Below are positions 54,016 to 58,754 of a stretch of 64,000 nt of DNA, in pieces. Position 1 is the stretch's first letter. Each line of letters opens with the position of its first letter. Location: positions 124,001 through 188,000 of the forward strand of contig CAJIYJ010000003.1 of the NCBI GenBank assembly GCA_905181625.1, written 5' to 3'. The notes beneath the pieces are model-generated. The model had not been told where the DNA came from. It made no database searches and saw nothing but the letters and a program-made list of their open reading frames with translations. A program made the position numbers and the translations under genes. Origin of the DNA: an uncultured Flavobacteriaceae bacterium (GTDB taxonomy: Bacteria; Bacteroidota; Bacteroidia; Flavobacteriales; Flavobacteriaceae).

Positions 54016-55641
54016 ATGAATTACTTCATGAAATATTTTTACTCATTATTATTAATTTTAATTATTTCTTTTTTTGGTTGTTCTATAGAAAAATCATCCG
54101 ATACTAGGCCCAACATTTTATTTATTATGTCAGATGATCATGCGTATCAAGCTATAAGTGCTTATGACAATAGGTTAATTCAAACTCCTAATATTGATCG
54201 AATCGCAAAAGAGGGTATTTTATTTAGTAACGCTTCAGTAACTAATTCAATATGCGCTCCTTCAAGAGCAGTGATTTTGACAGGAAAGCATAGCCATATT
54301 AATGGAAAAATAGATAATGGCAAGCCCTTTGATACAACTCAAGTTACTTTTCCACAACTCTTTCAAAAGGCGGGTTATCAAACTGCAATGTTCGGTAAAC
54401 TTCATTTTGGAAACAACCCTAAAGGAGTAGATGATTTTTTAATTCTACCAGGTCAGGGAAGTTATATTAATCCAAAATTTATTAGTAAAGAAGGAGATAC
54501 AATCATTACTGGTTATGTAACAGACATTATTACAGATATCACTCTTAACTGGTTAGATAAGAAAAGGGATAAAGAAAAGCCATTTATGATGATGTATCTT
54601 CATAAAGCTCCACATAGACCTTGGTGGCCAAGTCCTGAAAAATTTGCTGAATTTTATGAAAAAACATTTCCTGAACCTGAAACTCTTTTTGATGATTATA
54701 AAGGTAGAGGAACCGCTTCAAAAACTGCCGAAATGAATATTTTAACTCATATGCAGTATATGCACGATAGTAAAATTAGACCAGAAACTTTAAAAGAGAT
54801 GGGTAGTGTTGAACCGGAAATTAAGTATATAAGAGGAGAGGAAGTGGTCAGGCCTGGTCCTAATGGATTTTTGGGCCCATATAACAGGGCTAATAAGGAA
54901 CAAAGATCTAAATATAATGTCACTCTTGATAAAATAAACTTAGATTTTAAAAATAATTGGCCTAATATGAACGATACCCAAAAGATGAAATGGAAATTTC
55001 AAAGGTATATGCAGGATTATTTAGGAACTATTTCTTCTGTTGATGATAATGTAGGAAGAGTTTTAGATTATTTAGATCGAAATGATTTAACAAAAAATAC
55101 AATAGTTGTTTATACTTCAGATCAAGGGTTTTATCTTGGAGAACACGGTTGGTTTGATAAAAGGTTTATTTATGATGAATCTTTTAAAACTCCACTATTA
55201 GTTAGATGGCCAAATGAAATAAAGCCAGGGACAACAAGTGATGAAATGGTTCAGAATTTAGATTTCGCTCAAACTTTTTTAGAAGCTGCAATGTTAGAAG
55301 TACCTGATGATATGCAAGGCGAGAGTTTAATGCCTTTACTAAAAGGAAATACTAAAGATTGGACTAGAGAAGCAGTGTATTACCATTATTATGAATATCC
55401 ATCTGTGCACATGGTTAAAAGACATTACGGAATAATTAATAAAGAATTTAAGTTAGTTCATTTTTATTACGATGTTAATGAGTGGGAGTTATATGATAGA
55501 AAAAATGATCCCAATGAAATGAACAATGTTTACAGTAATCCGGATTATAAGGAAGTGGTAGAAAAATTAACTCAAGAATTAAAGGAAATGAGAATTAAAT
55601 ATAAAGATTCAAAAGAGTTAGATGAAAGCTTTATTTATTAA
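54016..55641 (+). CDS. Cys-type sulfatase lipoprotein
   Basis: 541 residues. A lipoprotein signal ends in FFGC with the lipidated Cys at about 22. The alkaline-phosphatase-like domain has metal-binding IMSDDHAYQ, the active-site CAPSR at 80-84, in which the Cys is oxidised to formylglycine, TGKHSHING, and YTSDQGFYLGEHGWFDKRF. Such sulfatases desulfate algal or host glycans. It stands alone: no polysaccharide-utilisation genes (SusC/D, glycoside hydrolases) or formylglycine-generating enzyme are in the window, so the substrate is unknown. Confidence 0.9.
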   Translation: MNYFMKYFYSLLLILIISFFGCSIEKSSDTRPNILFIMSDDHAYQAISAYDNRLIQTPNIDRIAKEGILFSNASVTNSICAPSRAVILTGKHSHINGKIDNGKPFDTTQVTFPQLFQKAGYQTAMFGKLHFGNNPKGVDDFLILPGQGSYINPKFISKEGDTIITGYVTDIITDITLNWLDKKRDKEKPFMMMYLHKAPHRPWWPSPEKFAEFYEKTFPEPETLFDDYKGRGTASKTAEMNILTHMQYMHDSKIRPETLKEMGSVEPEIKYIRGEEVVRPGPNGFLGPYNRANKEQRSKYNVTLDKINLDFKNNWPNMNDTQKMKWKFQRYMQDYLGTISSVDDNVGRVLDYLDRNDLTKNTIVVYTSDQGFYLGEHGWFDKRFIYDESFKTPLLVRWPNEIKPGTTSDEMVQNLDFAQTFLEAAMLEVPDDMQGESLMPLLKGNTKDWTREAVYYHYYEYPSVHMVKRHYGIINKEFKLVHFYYDVNEWELYDRKNDPNEMNNVYSNPDYKEVVEKLTQELKEMRIKYKDSKELDESFIY

Positions 55642-55650
55642 ATAGAGTTG

Positions 55651-56259
55651 CTAGATACTTATATTATTAATATAAGTTTTAATACCAATCATATAATTAT
55701 CGAAAACTATATCATCATCATAAATTTTTCTAATTCCTCTTATCCCTTCAAAAGAGCCAATTAAACAGATGGCTAGGGCTCTGGGATTAACTTCTGAATG
55801 AATTTCTTTTTTTCTGATACCTTCTTGTATTGTATTGGCTAAAGTATCAACCCAGCTATCTATTAAATCCCTTAGAAGAATTCTAAAGTCACTTTCGTTA
55901 CAACCTATTTCATTAATTAAATTATTTGCAGGGCATCCTAATTGTTTTTCCTTTTCAGTATAGTTTTTAATTCTTTGGGTGAATACATATAATATTAGAT
56001 CAGGAATATTTTTGTTTTTATAATCTTTTAAGGGATTAATAAAGCCATTGTAAATTCTATTTTTGATAATTCCGTCAATAACTTTTTTTCCAATATCATT
56101 TTTGTTTTTAAAATGATGGTAAAAAGCTCCTTTTGAAAGAGAAGTCTGTTTCATTATGTCTGGAATACTAGTCTTGTTATAGCCTTGGCTATAGAACAAT
56201 TCAAAAGATTTATTTATTATTAAATCTTGGGTCTCTTTTGATTTAAGATCCTGTTGCAT
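55651..56259 (-). CDS. TetR/AcrR family regulator
   Basis: 202 residues. N-terminal helix-turn-helix (SFELFYSQGYNKTSIPDIMK, QTSLSKGAFYHHFKNKNDIG) and a C-terminal ligand domain with LGCPANNLINEIG, resembling the AcrR_C/TetR_C_6-like group. Divergent from the two secreted paralogs, with a palindrome in between, so it most likely controls them and itself. The ligand is unknown. Confidence 0.88.
   Translation of the reverse strand: MQQDLKSKETQDLIINKSFELFYSQGYNKTSIPDIMKQTSLSKGAFYHHFKNKNDIGKKVIDGIIKNRIYNGFINPLKDYKNKNIPDLILYVFTQRIKNYTEKEKQLGCPANNLINEIGCNESDFRILLRDLIDSWVDTLANTIQEGIRKKEIHSEVNPRALAICLIGSFEGIRGIRKIYDDDIVFDNYMIGIKTYINNISI
55657..55680. terminator. Possible shared terminator between sulfatase and tetR
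   Basis: ACTTATAT (55657-55664), a five-base loop and ATATAAGT (55670-55677) form a perfect 8-bp AT-only stem followed by TTTT. It lies within the last codons of the convergent tetR gene. The stem is weak, so confidence is low. Confidence 0.4.
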
Positions 56260-56329: not shown

Positions 56330-56353
56330 AAAACATACATATATGCATGTTTT
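56330..56353. promoter_or_regulatory. Palindromic operator candidate for the TetR regulator
   Basis: A 24-base palindrome with halves AAAACATACATA and TATGCATGTTTT; only one base pair breaks the symmetry. It is centred in the 139-base gap between the divergent tetR and the first secreted paralog, where TetR-type dimers usually bind. Confidence 0.6.
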
Positions 56354-56398
56354 TAGCTTAATTAATTATATTAGCGAAATAACCATAAAATTTTACAA

Positions 56399-57172
56399 AT
56401 GAAAAAAATTAATTTAATCATGCTTTTATTGTTTTCAATAGCAATTTCTGCTCAAAACGTAATGAATAATTCTTACTTAGATGTTCCTTTAAACAAAGTG
56501 AATGATTTTTTAGAGTTGCACAAAAAAGTTGTTGACATGTCTAATGGTGAAGGTAGAACAATTGGAAACCATTGGGTTTATAGACATTGGTATGGAAATG
56601 ATCACAGTATAATGCTTGGCGATATATATCCTTCAGCTGAAGCTGCTGTTAAAGATGATTTTTGGGGAGTTTTAAACAAGAATATTGATGCACTTCCTGA
56701 TGATAAGAAAAAAGAAATGCAAGATGTTGTTGGTAAGTGGTGGGCGTATCACAACAATCATACAGATGAGATGAGATCTGTAGATTGGGAAAAAAATTGG
56801 CTTGGAAAAGAAAATCTTGATTTAGATATTCCTTATGTTTTTGTTGTAGGTAGCTACAATTCAAATGCGGGGAATCAAGAAATGATAGATGCATATATGG
56901 AATGGAGTGTTAAGCCTGGAGTAGAAAAAGGTGTTATGCTTTACGGAGGAGGTACATCTCATTTTATAGGCTCAGGTTCTGATGTTCAATTGTGGTCAGC
57001 TTATACAAATATTGCTGATTTTGCTGAAGCAAACGGTCCAAACTCTCAACGTAATTCAGAAGCTGCACCAAAATTCTGGAGTCTTGTAGAGGGCGCACAT
57101 TCGGATCAAATTTATATTCATGTTGGTCACACGATTGAAAAGAAATTTAATTTAGCTGGAAAAGACAAGTAA
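56399..57172 (+). CDS. Secreted protein of unknown function, paralog 1
   Basis: 257 residues. Signal peptide MKKINLIMLLLFSIAISAQ, so exported. Not recognised. It consists of two similar halves: each has a beta-strand-like start, a helix with charged residues, and an end with a conserved acidic motif (NHTDEMRS at about 120, AHSDQIYIH near 240). This looks like two ferredoxin-like or dimeric alpha/beta-barrel domains, but that is an inference from pattern. Rich in Trp and His (HWVYRHWYGNDHS). Homologous to the next gene, 19 bases apart; divergent from the TetR gene. Not an obvious enzyme. Confidence 0.75.
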   Translation: MKKINLIMLLLFSIAISAQNVMNNSYLDVPLNKVNDFLELHKKVVDMSNGEGRTIGNHWVYRHWYGNDHSIMLGDIYPSAEAAVKDDFWGVLNKNIDALPDDKKKEMQDVVGKWWAYHNNHTDEMRSVDWEKNWLGKENLDLDIPYVFVVGSYNSNAGNQEMIDAYMEWSVKPGVEKGVMLYGGGTSHFIGSGSDVQLWSAYTNIADFAEANGPNSQRNSEAAPKFWSLVEGAHSDQIYIHVGHTIEKKFNLAGKDK

Positions 57173-57190
57173 TTAAAAAAAATTATAAAA

Positions 57191-57997
57191 ATGAAAAAAA
57201 TAATATTTTTACTAACTTTTCTTGTGTCGATTAATACAGTAGCACAAGAAATACATTCTGTTTACACTTTAGATGTGCCCCGTTCAAAGGCAAGTGATTT
57301 TGTTAAAATGCACAAACAGTTTATGGATATTTACTACATGGGCTCTGAAGATAATAAAATGGAATCAACTTGGTTGTTTTCTCATACATATGGTAGTGAT
57401 TTCACTTTTAAGGTGATTGAAGTTTATCCAGATATTTTAGCTCAAGCTAGTGCTGTAAATTATGGAACTGAAGTGTCTAAAAATATTGATGCTATGGGTA
57501 TTTCATACGATGAGAAGAAGATGTTAAAAGATGAGTGGTCTACTTATTTTCAATTATTTCTAGAAGGTCATGATGATGAAGTTAGAGTCACTTTTGAGAA
57601 ACAATTTTTCATTTCTGAAAAGGACATTGATTTTTCAAAAAAACACATCGTAGTGTTTAATAGTAATAATCCTAAATGGAAAGATAGAGAAGAATATATT
57701 TCTTTATGGAATAAATTCACAAGACAACCAGCTATTGATTTAGGTGAAGCTTTGGCAATAGTTCCGTCAGGTCATTATAGTGGAAGCTCTTATACTTTTC
57801 AGGCTGCTCTATGGTACAGTTCTTGGGATTCTTTTTTGGTGAATCAGAATAGTTTAGAGAATTCTGGTCCAATGTCAGATCAGAGGAAAAGAATGTGGGA
57901 TATTGGAGGAAATCATTCAGATGAAATAACAACTTTTTTAGGATGTAACTGGTCTAGTAAAGGAACTCCTTCTAAAACTTTTACGATCGCTAAATAA
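57191..57997 (+). CDS. Secreted protein of unknown function, paralog 2
   Basis: 268 residues with signal peptide MKKIIFLLTFLVSINTVAQ. Clearly paralogous to the gene before it: both share LDVPxxKxxDFxxxHK, IYP/VYP with a following KNIDA-type segment, a half-domain end GHDDEVR, and a final NHSDEITTFLG. Tandem duplication followed by strong divergence is the likely origin. It ends in front of a strong terminator, so the two genes form one transcription unit. Function unknown. Confidence 0.75.
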   Translation: MKKIIFLLTFLVSINTVAQEIHSVYTLDVPRSKASDFVKMHKQFMDIYYMGSEDNKMESTWLFSHTYGSDFTFKVIEVYPDILAQASAVNYGTEVSKNIDAMGISYDEKKMLKDEWSTYFQLFLEGHDDEVRVTFEKQFFISEKDIDFSKKHIVVFNSNNPKWKDREEYISLWNKFTRQPAIDLGEALAIVPSGHYSGSSYTFQAALWYSSWDSFLVNQNSLENSGPMSDQRKRMWDIGGNHSDEITTFLGCNWSSKGTPSKTFTIAK

Positions 57998-58074: not shown

Positions 58075-58295
58075 ATGGATGCAGAAAAAACATTATTACA
58101 GTTAGAGTTTACGTTGTAATAGTAGGGCTTTTAAATATGGGCTCGATCTTACTTACAATTCAATTTGGATTTAGCTGGATTTATGCTGAATTAGCAGTTA
58201 TACAAATAGCTAGTCCGATTACAAAGTTTTGTCCAGTTTATACTATCTTAAACAAGTTAATGCCTGATACAGACCCTATGCAAAATGGTAAATAA
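58075..58295 (+). CDS. DUF2892 (YgaP-like) small membrane protein, frameshifted in an A tract
   Basis: A small inner-membrane protein with two TM helices (VYVVIVGLLNMGSILLTIQF, WIYAELAVIQIASPI) and the FCPVYTILNKL motif typical of DUF2892. The ATG at 58075 gives MDAEK, then the frame breaks in a run of six A (58085-58090). With seven A it would read MDAEKNIITVRVYVV, a natural start of about 73 residues. Without correction only an internal ATG at 58137 would give 52 residues. Its role is unknown; relatives occur with rhodanese or sulfur proteins. Confidence 0.7.
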
Positions 58296-58304
58296 AATTA
58301 ACTA

Positions 58305-58754
58305 ATGATCAAATCAACTCTATTTAGTGTAATTGCTTTTTTTATAACTTTTCAATCTTATTCTCAAGACCCTATTTCTTTAAAAGATTCTTTAGATATA
58401 ATGAAAGTTATGAAGATCCAAGAAATCGCTTGGAATAATGGCGATATTGATGCTTTTATGGAAGGTTACTTAAAATCCGAGGAGTTAGTTTTTTCTGGTA
58501 AATCAGGCCCAGTTTATGGATGGGGTAATACAAAAAAAAGATATTATATATCTTATCCTAATACCCAAGTAATGGGTAAATTAAAATTTACTGTTAAAAA
58601 AATACGATCTATTTCCTTAAATTCCGCTTTTCTAATTGGTGAGTATTACCTAAAAAGAACCACTCAAGATAGTTATGGTCATTTTACTTTATTATGGAAA
58701 AAAGTAAATAACAATTGGCTTATAATTAGCGATCACACTTCAGCTGTAAAATAA
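58305..58754 (+). CDS. Secreted SnoaL-like/DUF4440 protein
   Basis: 149 residues. A signal peptide (MIKSTLFSVIAFFITFQSYS) precedes an NTF2-like cone-fold domain (QEIAWNNGDIDAFMEGYLKS, GKLKFTVKKIRSISLNSAFL, LLWKKVNNNWLIISDHTS). The family holds binding proteins and small enzymes, and no ligand can be named. It follows the DUF2892 gene by 9 bases, so they are probably cotranscribed. Confidence 0.8.
   Translation: MIKSTLFSVIAFFITFQSYSQDPISLKDSLDIMKVMKIQEIAWNNGDIDAFMEGYLKSEELVFSGKSGPVYGWGNTKKRYYISYPNTQVMGKLKFTVKKIRSISLNSAFLIGEYYLKRTTQDSYGHFTLLWKKVNNNWLIISDHTSAVK

Follow-up and report, generated by a model that had tools for sequence, protein, structure and literature searches.

Two adjacent genes of a flavobacterial genome encode proteins, P0001 and P0002, which, judged from their sequences, represent an undescribed family of exported proteins. 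They are built of two homologous halves, each of which carries an invariant His together with an invariant His-x-Asp motif. We give about even chances to the whole reading of P0001 and P0002 as two-domain secreted small-molecule proteins under the control of a palindrome that recurs throughout their genus. The two anonymous exported proteins would then be part of a system open to experiment, in which the protein family has an invariant candidate active site present twice per protein, and the DNA element marks a set of genes in ocean bacteria, many of them for exported-looking proteins with no assigned role. The DNA analysed (the window, 64,000 nucleotides) comprises positions 124001–188000 of contig C3 of the 1.86-Mb genome G000. 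The genus of the window may be the same as the GTDB genus MAG-121220-bin8 of the Flavobacteriaceae, which one account describes as having genomes of <2 Mb and as highly abundant in the North Sea pre-bloom (PMC6794258).

P0001 (257 aa, 56399..57172, + strand) and P0002 (268 aa, 57191..57997, + strand) lie side by side, as described in the initial annotation, and are homologous at 27% identity (E 3e-25); P0002 is the member usually found at the TetR locus in the genus. The N-terminus of each is a signal-peptide-like stretch ending in ...AQ. In P0001 the signal peptide is predicted to span residues 1–18 (56399..56452, + strand), with Gln19 as the expected new N-terminus. Gln19 was found in 35/35 family members in the alignment of 35 proteins, as expected from the Q-rule of Bacteroidetes, described as Gln placed directly after the signal peptide (PMC5837995). 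The predicted export signal of both proteins is in agreement with the export claimed earlier. Searches of P0001 and P0002 against Pfam, NCBIfam and PHROGs gave no convincing match and none above cut-off, and the family is still as unrecognised as it was at first reading. Among 22 relatives compared with Pfam, the best E was no lower than 0.0025, and the bit scores obtained for 18 of these were all under the Pfam cut-off. The family was likewise not recognised among the matches listed for the literature on SnoaL-like, dimeric alpha-beta barrel and tandem NIPSNAP proteins. Relatives of P0001 were present in 17/299 and those of P0002 in 12/199 genomes of the same taxonomic family, each search recovering the clade of the other. 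The family profile detected relatives in 14/22 genomes of the genus and in at least 3/296 genomes of the order and at least 3/395 of the phylum, one being in each case the genome itself and the rest weak partial matches; the last two counts are lower bounds, as 6–8 candidates were scored per genome.

The internal duplication was evaluated by profile comparison. Alignment of the N-half with the C-half using hhalign gave a probability of 94.5 and a score of 47.1 (E 7.9e-8, single comparison), against scores that did not exceed 18.7 when the C-half columns were shuffled 60 times and a score of 17.9 for the reversed C-half. The top noise in such comparisons reached 26.8 (N-half vs the reversed profile of another family), and an earlier half-against-half run with 22 rows had the same outcome (probability 94.7). 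The halves are thus homologous, as had been proposed, and their motifs lie in register, with H63 aligned on H188, H121 on H234 and D123 on D236. All four motifs initially listed (HTDEM, HSDQI, HDDEV and HSDEI) were found, and all lie on the + strand. In P0001 these are His121-Thr-Asp123-Glu-Met-Arg126 of the N-half (56759..56776) and His234-Ser-Asp236-Gln-Ile of the C-half (57098..57112), and in P0002 His127-Asp-Asp129-Glu-Val-Arg132 (57569..57586) and His242-Ser-Asp244-Glu-Ile (57914..57928). Two further features had been overlooked, namely one more invariant His per half and an invariant Arg (R126) following the N-half motif. The second His corresponds to His63 (56585..56587) and its C-half counterpart His188 (56960..56962) in P0001, and to His65 (57383..57385) and His195 (57773..57775) in P0002.

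Residues identical in 35/35 proteins were Gln19, F37, H63, H121, D123, R126, H188 and G191, and those identical in 34/34 were W227, H234, D236, G243 and F250; the count for the C-half is 34 as one alignment row comes from a truncated contig. The motif conservation claimed at the outset therefore holds for the His and the Asp (35/35 in the N-half, 34/34 in the C-half) but not for the fourth letter, which varies between Glu (29) and Gln (6) in the N-half and among Gln (17), Glu (15) and Asp (2) in the C-half. As the two halves align in register with their invariant residues, each half can be described as His ... His-x-Asp, of which the motif first noticed is only a part. The conservation of this predicted site is the strongest evidence of function in the family. 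It is proposed that each half holds one site formed by a strand His (H63 or H188) and the His-x-Asp motif (H121-D123 or H234-D236), with the additional Arg in the N-half, and that each site would either hold a metal ion or act on some small organic compound through its His-Asp pair.

The site may also be metal-free, serving in acid-base chemistry or ligand binding like the alpha/beta barrel proteins that resemble small monooxygenases or handle lipids or quinones, a fair possibility, though short of probable. The set contains no invariant Cys and no further invariant carboxylate, and the invariant W227, R126, F37 and F250 would suit an organic ligand. NTF2/SnoaL-like proteins, a class which presumably often handles hydrophobic small molecules, share the palindrome described below. 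On the other hand, two His and one Asp retained without exception in both halves also resemble a metal site.

Upstream of the pair and divergent from it lies a gene for a TetR-family regulator (55651..56259, − strand) with TetR_N and TetR_C_13 domains and a Cys in the motif GCPANN. The helix-turn-helix domain TetR_N scored 47.8 bits against a cut-off of 24. Matching both TetR_N and TetR_C_13 above cut-off, the regulator resembles the AcuR- and ScbR-like proteins with TetR_C_13, but its scores against the models of AcuR (68.7 bits, cut-off 247) and of ScbR-type regulators (68.1 bits, cut-off 150) fall short, and the functions of these named regulators hence do not carry over to it. The TetR gene occurs once in each of 19/22 genomes of the genus, and the Cys was present in 17/17 TetR frames recovered from the 19 (GCPANN, with GCPAIN in one). 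The divergent promoter contains an operator-like palindrome, AAACATACATATATGCATGTTT (56331..56352), whose 18-bp core ends 48 bp before P0001 and has one mismatch to the consensus ACATWC-N6-GWATGT. This consensus was found in the divergent promoter of 9/9 loci with both flanks visible, of which eight are exact, the window being the one with a mismatch. Its retention across species at this position is as expected of a TetR operator. The tie between the pair and the TetR locus, suspected from the divergent order, was supported, both the order and the palindrome being seen at 9/9 loci.

The palindrome extends well beyond this locus. The exact core was found 96 times in 22 genomes of the genus, compared with 8 occurrences of the reversed pattern (column sums). 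The surroundings were examined for 75 listed sites (L141–L207, L107 and L114–L119), the other 21 belonging to G925, G923, G937 and G938. A start codon was located 28–60 bp downstream of 45 of the 75 sites and was absent at that distance from 30, as compared with 607/21,900 (2.8%) random positions in the same loci, and only 4/75 sites fell inside an ORF of at least 90 aa. By a crude rule, 33/50 genes so placed had an exported look, against 68/196 other ORFs (Fisher p 9e-5). The sequence TATATT followed the palindrome in 29/50 cases vs 22% in shuffles. The −7 box, with the consensus TAnnTTTG, was rejected as a companion element, being present after merely 6/50 palindromes vs 3% in shuffles.

Cluster inspection of the 50 genes so placed revealed tandem NTF2-like proteins (L144, L153, L163, L175, L177, L186 and L197), NTF2-like lipoproteins (L165, L178, L196 and L176) and proteins with a C-terminal DUF4440 (L114, L141 and L148). 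Two-half orphan proteins were represented by family F2 (L155, L161, L180 and L193), by F3/F5 (L150, L154, L160, L164, L182 and L191) and by F4 (L156 and L195), and the P0001/P0002 family itself by L107, L118 and L119. Among target representatives compared with Pfam, matches above cut-off were obtained for L177 (SnoaL_2, 4.7e-8), L148 (DUF4440, 6e-7) and L176 (DUF4440, 3.4e-6), while L178 remained below cut-off and F3, F4 and F5 had no match. Other targets were a 172-aa membrane protein (five genes), a flavoprotein (four) and what we take to be an ABC ATPase (three), and five further sites lie 105–120 bp before genes presumed to be ExbB-like (L157, L179, L190, L203 and L204). A palindrome was also observed near an ABC transporter ATPase gene in L168, L171, L192, L200 and L202; in the last four, the divergent gene codes for a flavoprotein which, we presume, is of a carotenoid/retinol oxidoreductase kind. 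Away from the locus, the genome of the window carries two exact sites, one near a flavoprotein/ABC pair and one before an ExbB-like gene, and its F2 gene has a copy with two mismatches 38 bp upstream. Solitary genes of the P0001 type in L004 and L112 are preceded by one-mismatch copies at 46 and 45 bp, respectively, and those in L109 and L113, also in the genus, have no palindrome. Outside the genus, none of 17 family genes examined had a palindrome within two mismatches, which makes the link between family and palindrome specific to this genus.

We read the palindrome sites as a putative regulon, its ligand and its regulator being presumed. Transcription would be controlled at ACATWC-N6-GWATGT, most likely through binding of the neighbouring TetR, probably as a repressor rather than an activator. 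The TetR would also control other exported NTF2-like proteins and duplicated orphan proteins, the outcome being a secreted response to some small compound, which may be electrophilic or aromatic. It is conceivable, if rather unlikely, that the one palindrome, the cysteine-bearing TetR and a dedicated set of exported orphans, comprising NTF2-like proteins and two-half families including the present one with its putative doubled His/His-Asp metal site, together form an as yet undescribed system that handles, outside the cytoplasm, a small compound of organic or electrophilic nature. The two-half families of this putative set are several and show no clear kinship to each other, and the genus consists of small-genome marine flavobacteria. 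Points that weigh against the main reading are the non-significant NIPSNAP/ABM profiles, the mixed presence of TetR and palindrome, the palindrome targets that are not exported orphans, and the lack of the palindrome before L109, L113 and the family genes examined outside the genus.

The mixed presence, seen in genomes most of which are partial, bears on another explanation, by which some other regulator of global reach recognises the palindrome and the adjacent TetR gene is just one of its targets. This is a fair contender, if short of probable. G239 contains 10 palindromes and no TetR match, and the targets include the ABC transporter, flavoprotein and ExbB-like genes. Against it, G239 is only 88% complete and its TetR may have been missed, the palindrome is present in the TetR's own divergent promoter in 9/9 loci, and it stays beside TetR in L149, L158 and L173, where P0002 is not adjacent. 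Among the remaining genomes, G927 has one palindrome and no TetR match, G934 has TetR and no exact palindrome, and G925 has no TetR match, its P0002 being cut at a contig end.

The locus has a recurrent organization in the genus. The usual order is TetR (divergent), P0002, an NTF2/SnoaL-like gene and more genes towards the rhodopsin, and was seen in the window and in L107 (= L003), L108 and L114–L118; L119 has only a fragment of the SnoaL-like gene, and the L111 locus is truncated on its TetR side. The SnoaL-like gene of the window (58305..58754, + strand) encodes an exported protein matching DUF4440 by Pfam; in the window alone does this assignment rest on Pfam, the similar genes after P0002 at other loci having been matched by eye. 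A partial reading frame (58137..58295, + strand) resembles, by eye, a frame of 74–76 aa near the same TetR in L119, L149, L158 and L173, where the counterpart is open, small and membrane-like. Further on, at 61.8–63.5 kb, lies what we take to be a proteorhodopsin gene with its usual neighbour. On the far side of TetR, sulfatase-like frames are present in eight of nine genus loci (window 54016–55641, L107 and L114–L119), named by Pfam for the gene of the window only and by eye for the others.

Such neighbours could suggest a role in polysaccharide utilization, in which algal glycans would be bound or modified in concert with nearby sulfatases and glycoside hydrolases, an explanation of low probability. 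It is favored by the sulfatase-like frames, seen by eye on the TetR side of 8/9 loci for which both sides are visible, L108 being the exception. A sulfatase (Pfam) also adjoins a family gene in L065 as it does TetR in the window, GH81 is next to L063 (Pfam) and to L062 of the same cluster, an alpha-L-fucosidase-like gene adjoins L004, and a frame in L114–L117 has, by eye, a sialate esterase look. Against this, across 20 loci no neighbor family other than the family itself recurred in more than four, the sulfatase cluster being present in three, and none of the 10 palindrome-target proteins scanned belonged to a carbohydrate family.

A tandem ferredoxin-like fold of the NIPSNAP/ABM type (dimeric alpha/beta barrel) is offered as a lead for the proposed small-molecule proteins, the family not being filed there. 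Crude alignment-averaged propensities gave the order β-α-β-β-α-β for the N-half and a compatible though less clear pattern for the C-half, with an unclear first helix; 19 two-domain NIPSNAP proteins treated as a control showed a broadly similar picture. The half-domain is most likely such a ferredoxin-like unit, and with this order the His-x-Asp would fall in the turn that links the second helix to the final strand. It is improbable that the conserved residues are purely structural, providing buried hydrogen bonds that tie this helix-strand turn to the sheet of a scaffold without a polar site: a structural role would equally explain their retention in both halves and agrees with the variable fourth letter, but the residues are the same throughout the 35 proteins, some of which share only about 27% identity with P0001, and few other residues are invariant, which argues for function rather than packing.

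Membership in the known families of this fold was not established. In the NIPSNAP model (PF07978), the C-half of L021 matched positions 13–94 of 102 at E 0.0029 and 18.2 bits, below the 22.3-bit cut-off, and was the only match of any kind among 22 members scanned, P0001 and P0002 giving none. The family profile scored 20.9 against that of two-domain NIPSNAP proteins, hardly above the shuffled maximum of 20.2, and the C-half aligned with the NIPSNAP domain colinearly over 89 columns at a probability of 6.7. A search of 26 relatives for NIPSNAP gave no match. ABM (PF03992) was not matched in Pfam and gave profile probabilities of 2.7–4.5 (full profile and N-half), and solved structures gave no credible match, none being better than E 0.06. 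NIPSNAP proteins occur in 41/247 genomes of the phylum, and 19/29 NIPSNAP frames collected were two-domain proteins of the same size as the present family. These two-domain proteins of Bacteroidota resemble the family in length (about 245–280 aa), in having two alpha/beta domains, in a signal-peptide-like start in many of them (by eye) and, in part, in the predicted order of strands and helices. Their own halves align at a probability of 99.2, whereas the present family has no significant alignment to them. ABM proteins are likewise expected to share a small alpha/beta half-domain, but have no significant profile match to the family.

Other exported proteins of the genus were compared as well. 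The NTF2/SnoaL-like proteins (DUF4440, SnoaL_2) adjoin P0002 and are frequent targets of the same palindrome, but constitute a separate family (profile probability 0.1 vs P0001/P0002). F2 is a second exported orphan family of about 229 aa (L047–L057 and L078–L090; C3:239453–240124 in the genome of the window). The same loci include lipoproteins with NTF2-like and ABM-like parts, which have an exported look, lie beside NTF2-like genes and come from the same genus as the family. Kinship with F2 and F4 was rejected, as a probability of 93.8 was obtained only with the signal peptide in the profile and fell to 0.4 and 19.2 without it. A strong match to F3/F5 (99.7) was also discarded, being due to two rows of the present family in that profile. 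The cleaned F3/F5 profile gave a probability of 45.5 (N-half 56.0) and a score of 35.3 vs 20.6 for 40 shuffles, and a remote relation is therefore possible.

The pair had been described as tandem paralogs, which as a local duplication did not stand. A tree of 34 proteins separated P0001-type from P0002-type members by a branch with 100/99 support, and members from other genera were placed on both sides (four in the P0001 type and one, L021, in the P0002 type). By this phylogeny the two clades are older than the genus, and a recent tandem duplication is ruled out. P0001 adjoins P0002 in only three of the genomes seen, those of the window, L003 (= G928) and G937, in which a P0001-type gene separates P0002 from TetR; elsewhere in the genus the two types are not neighbours or one of them was not detected, and four other P0001-type genes lie alone (L109, L110 (= L004), L112 and L113). 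No match to the family was found in plasmids. A P0001 relative was found joined to Synechococcus-phage-like genes on a contig of a viral collection (L040 4500–5396; L035/L040) and, as a phage-borne member, was rejected as a probable assembly chimera. Its phage portion is similar to tail and 2OG-oxygenase genes of Synechococcus phages, the start of a bacterial-looking minus-strand frame (38 aa) directly precedes the homologue, the contig end is presumably a Nextera adapter, and a comparison of the homologue with 50,697 phage records gave no match.

The P0001 gene of the window groups with those of L004 and L113 (100/100), and the P0001-type genes that occupy this position in L003 and G937 group together (100/100), apart from that of the window. 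The DNA at 56374–57200 is a mosaic, with the start codon and signal peptide near to L003 and the body nearer to L004. The region of the start codon matches L003 at 53/59 bases and L004 at 35/58, and from 56493 on the gene body matches L004 at 42–50 of 60 and L003 at 33–45 of 60. From this switch in DNA similarity, it looks as if the body of the P0001 gene has been replaced in place.
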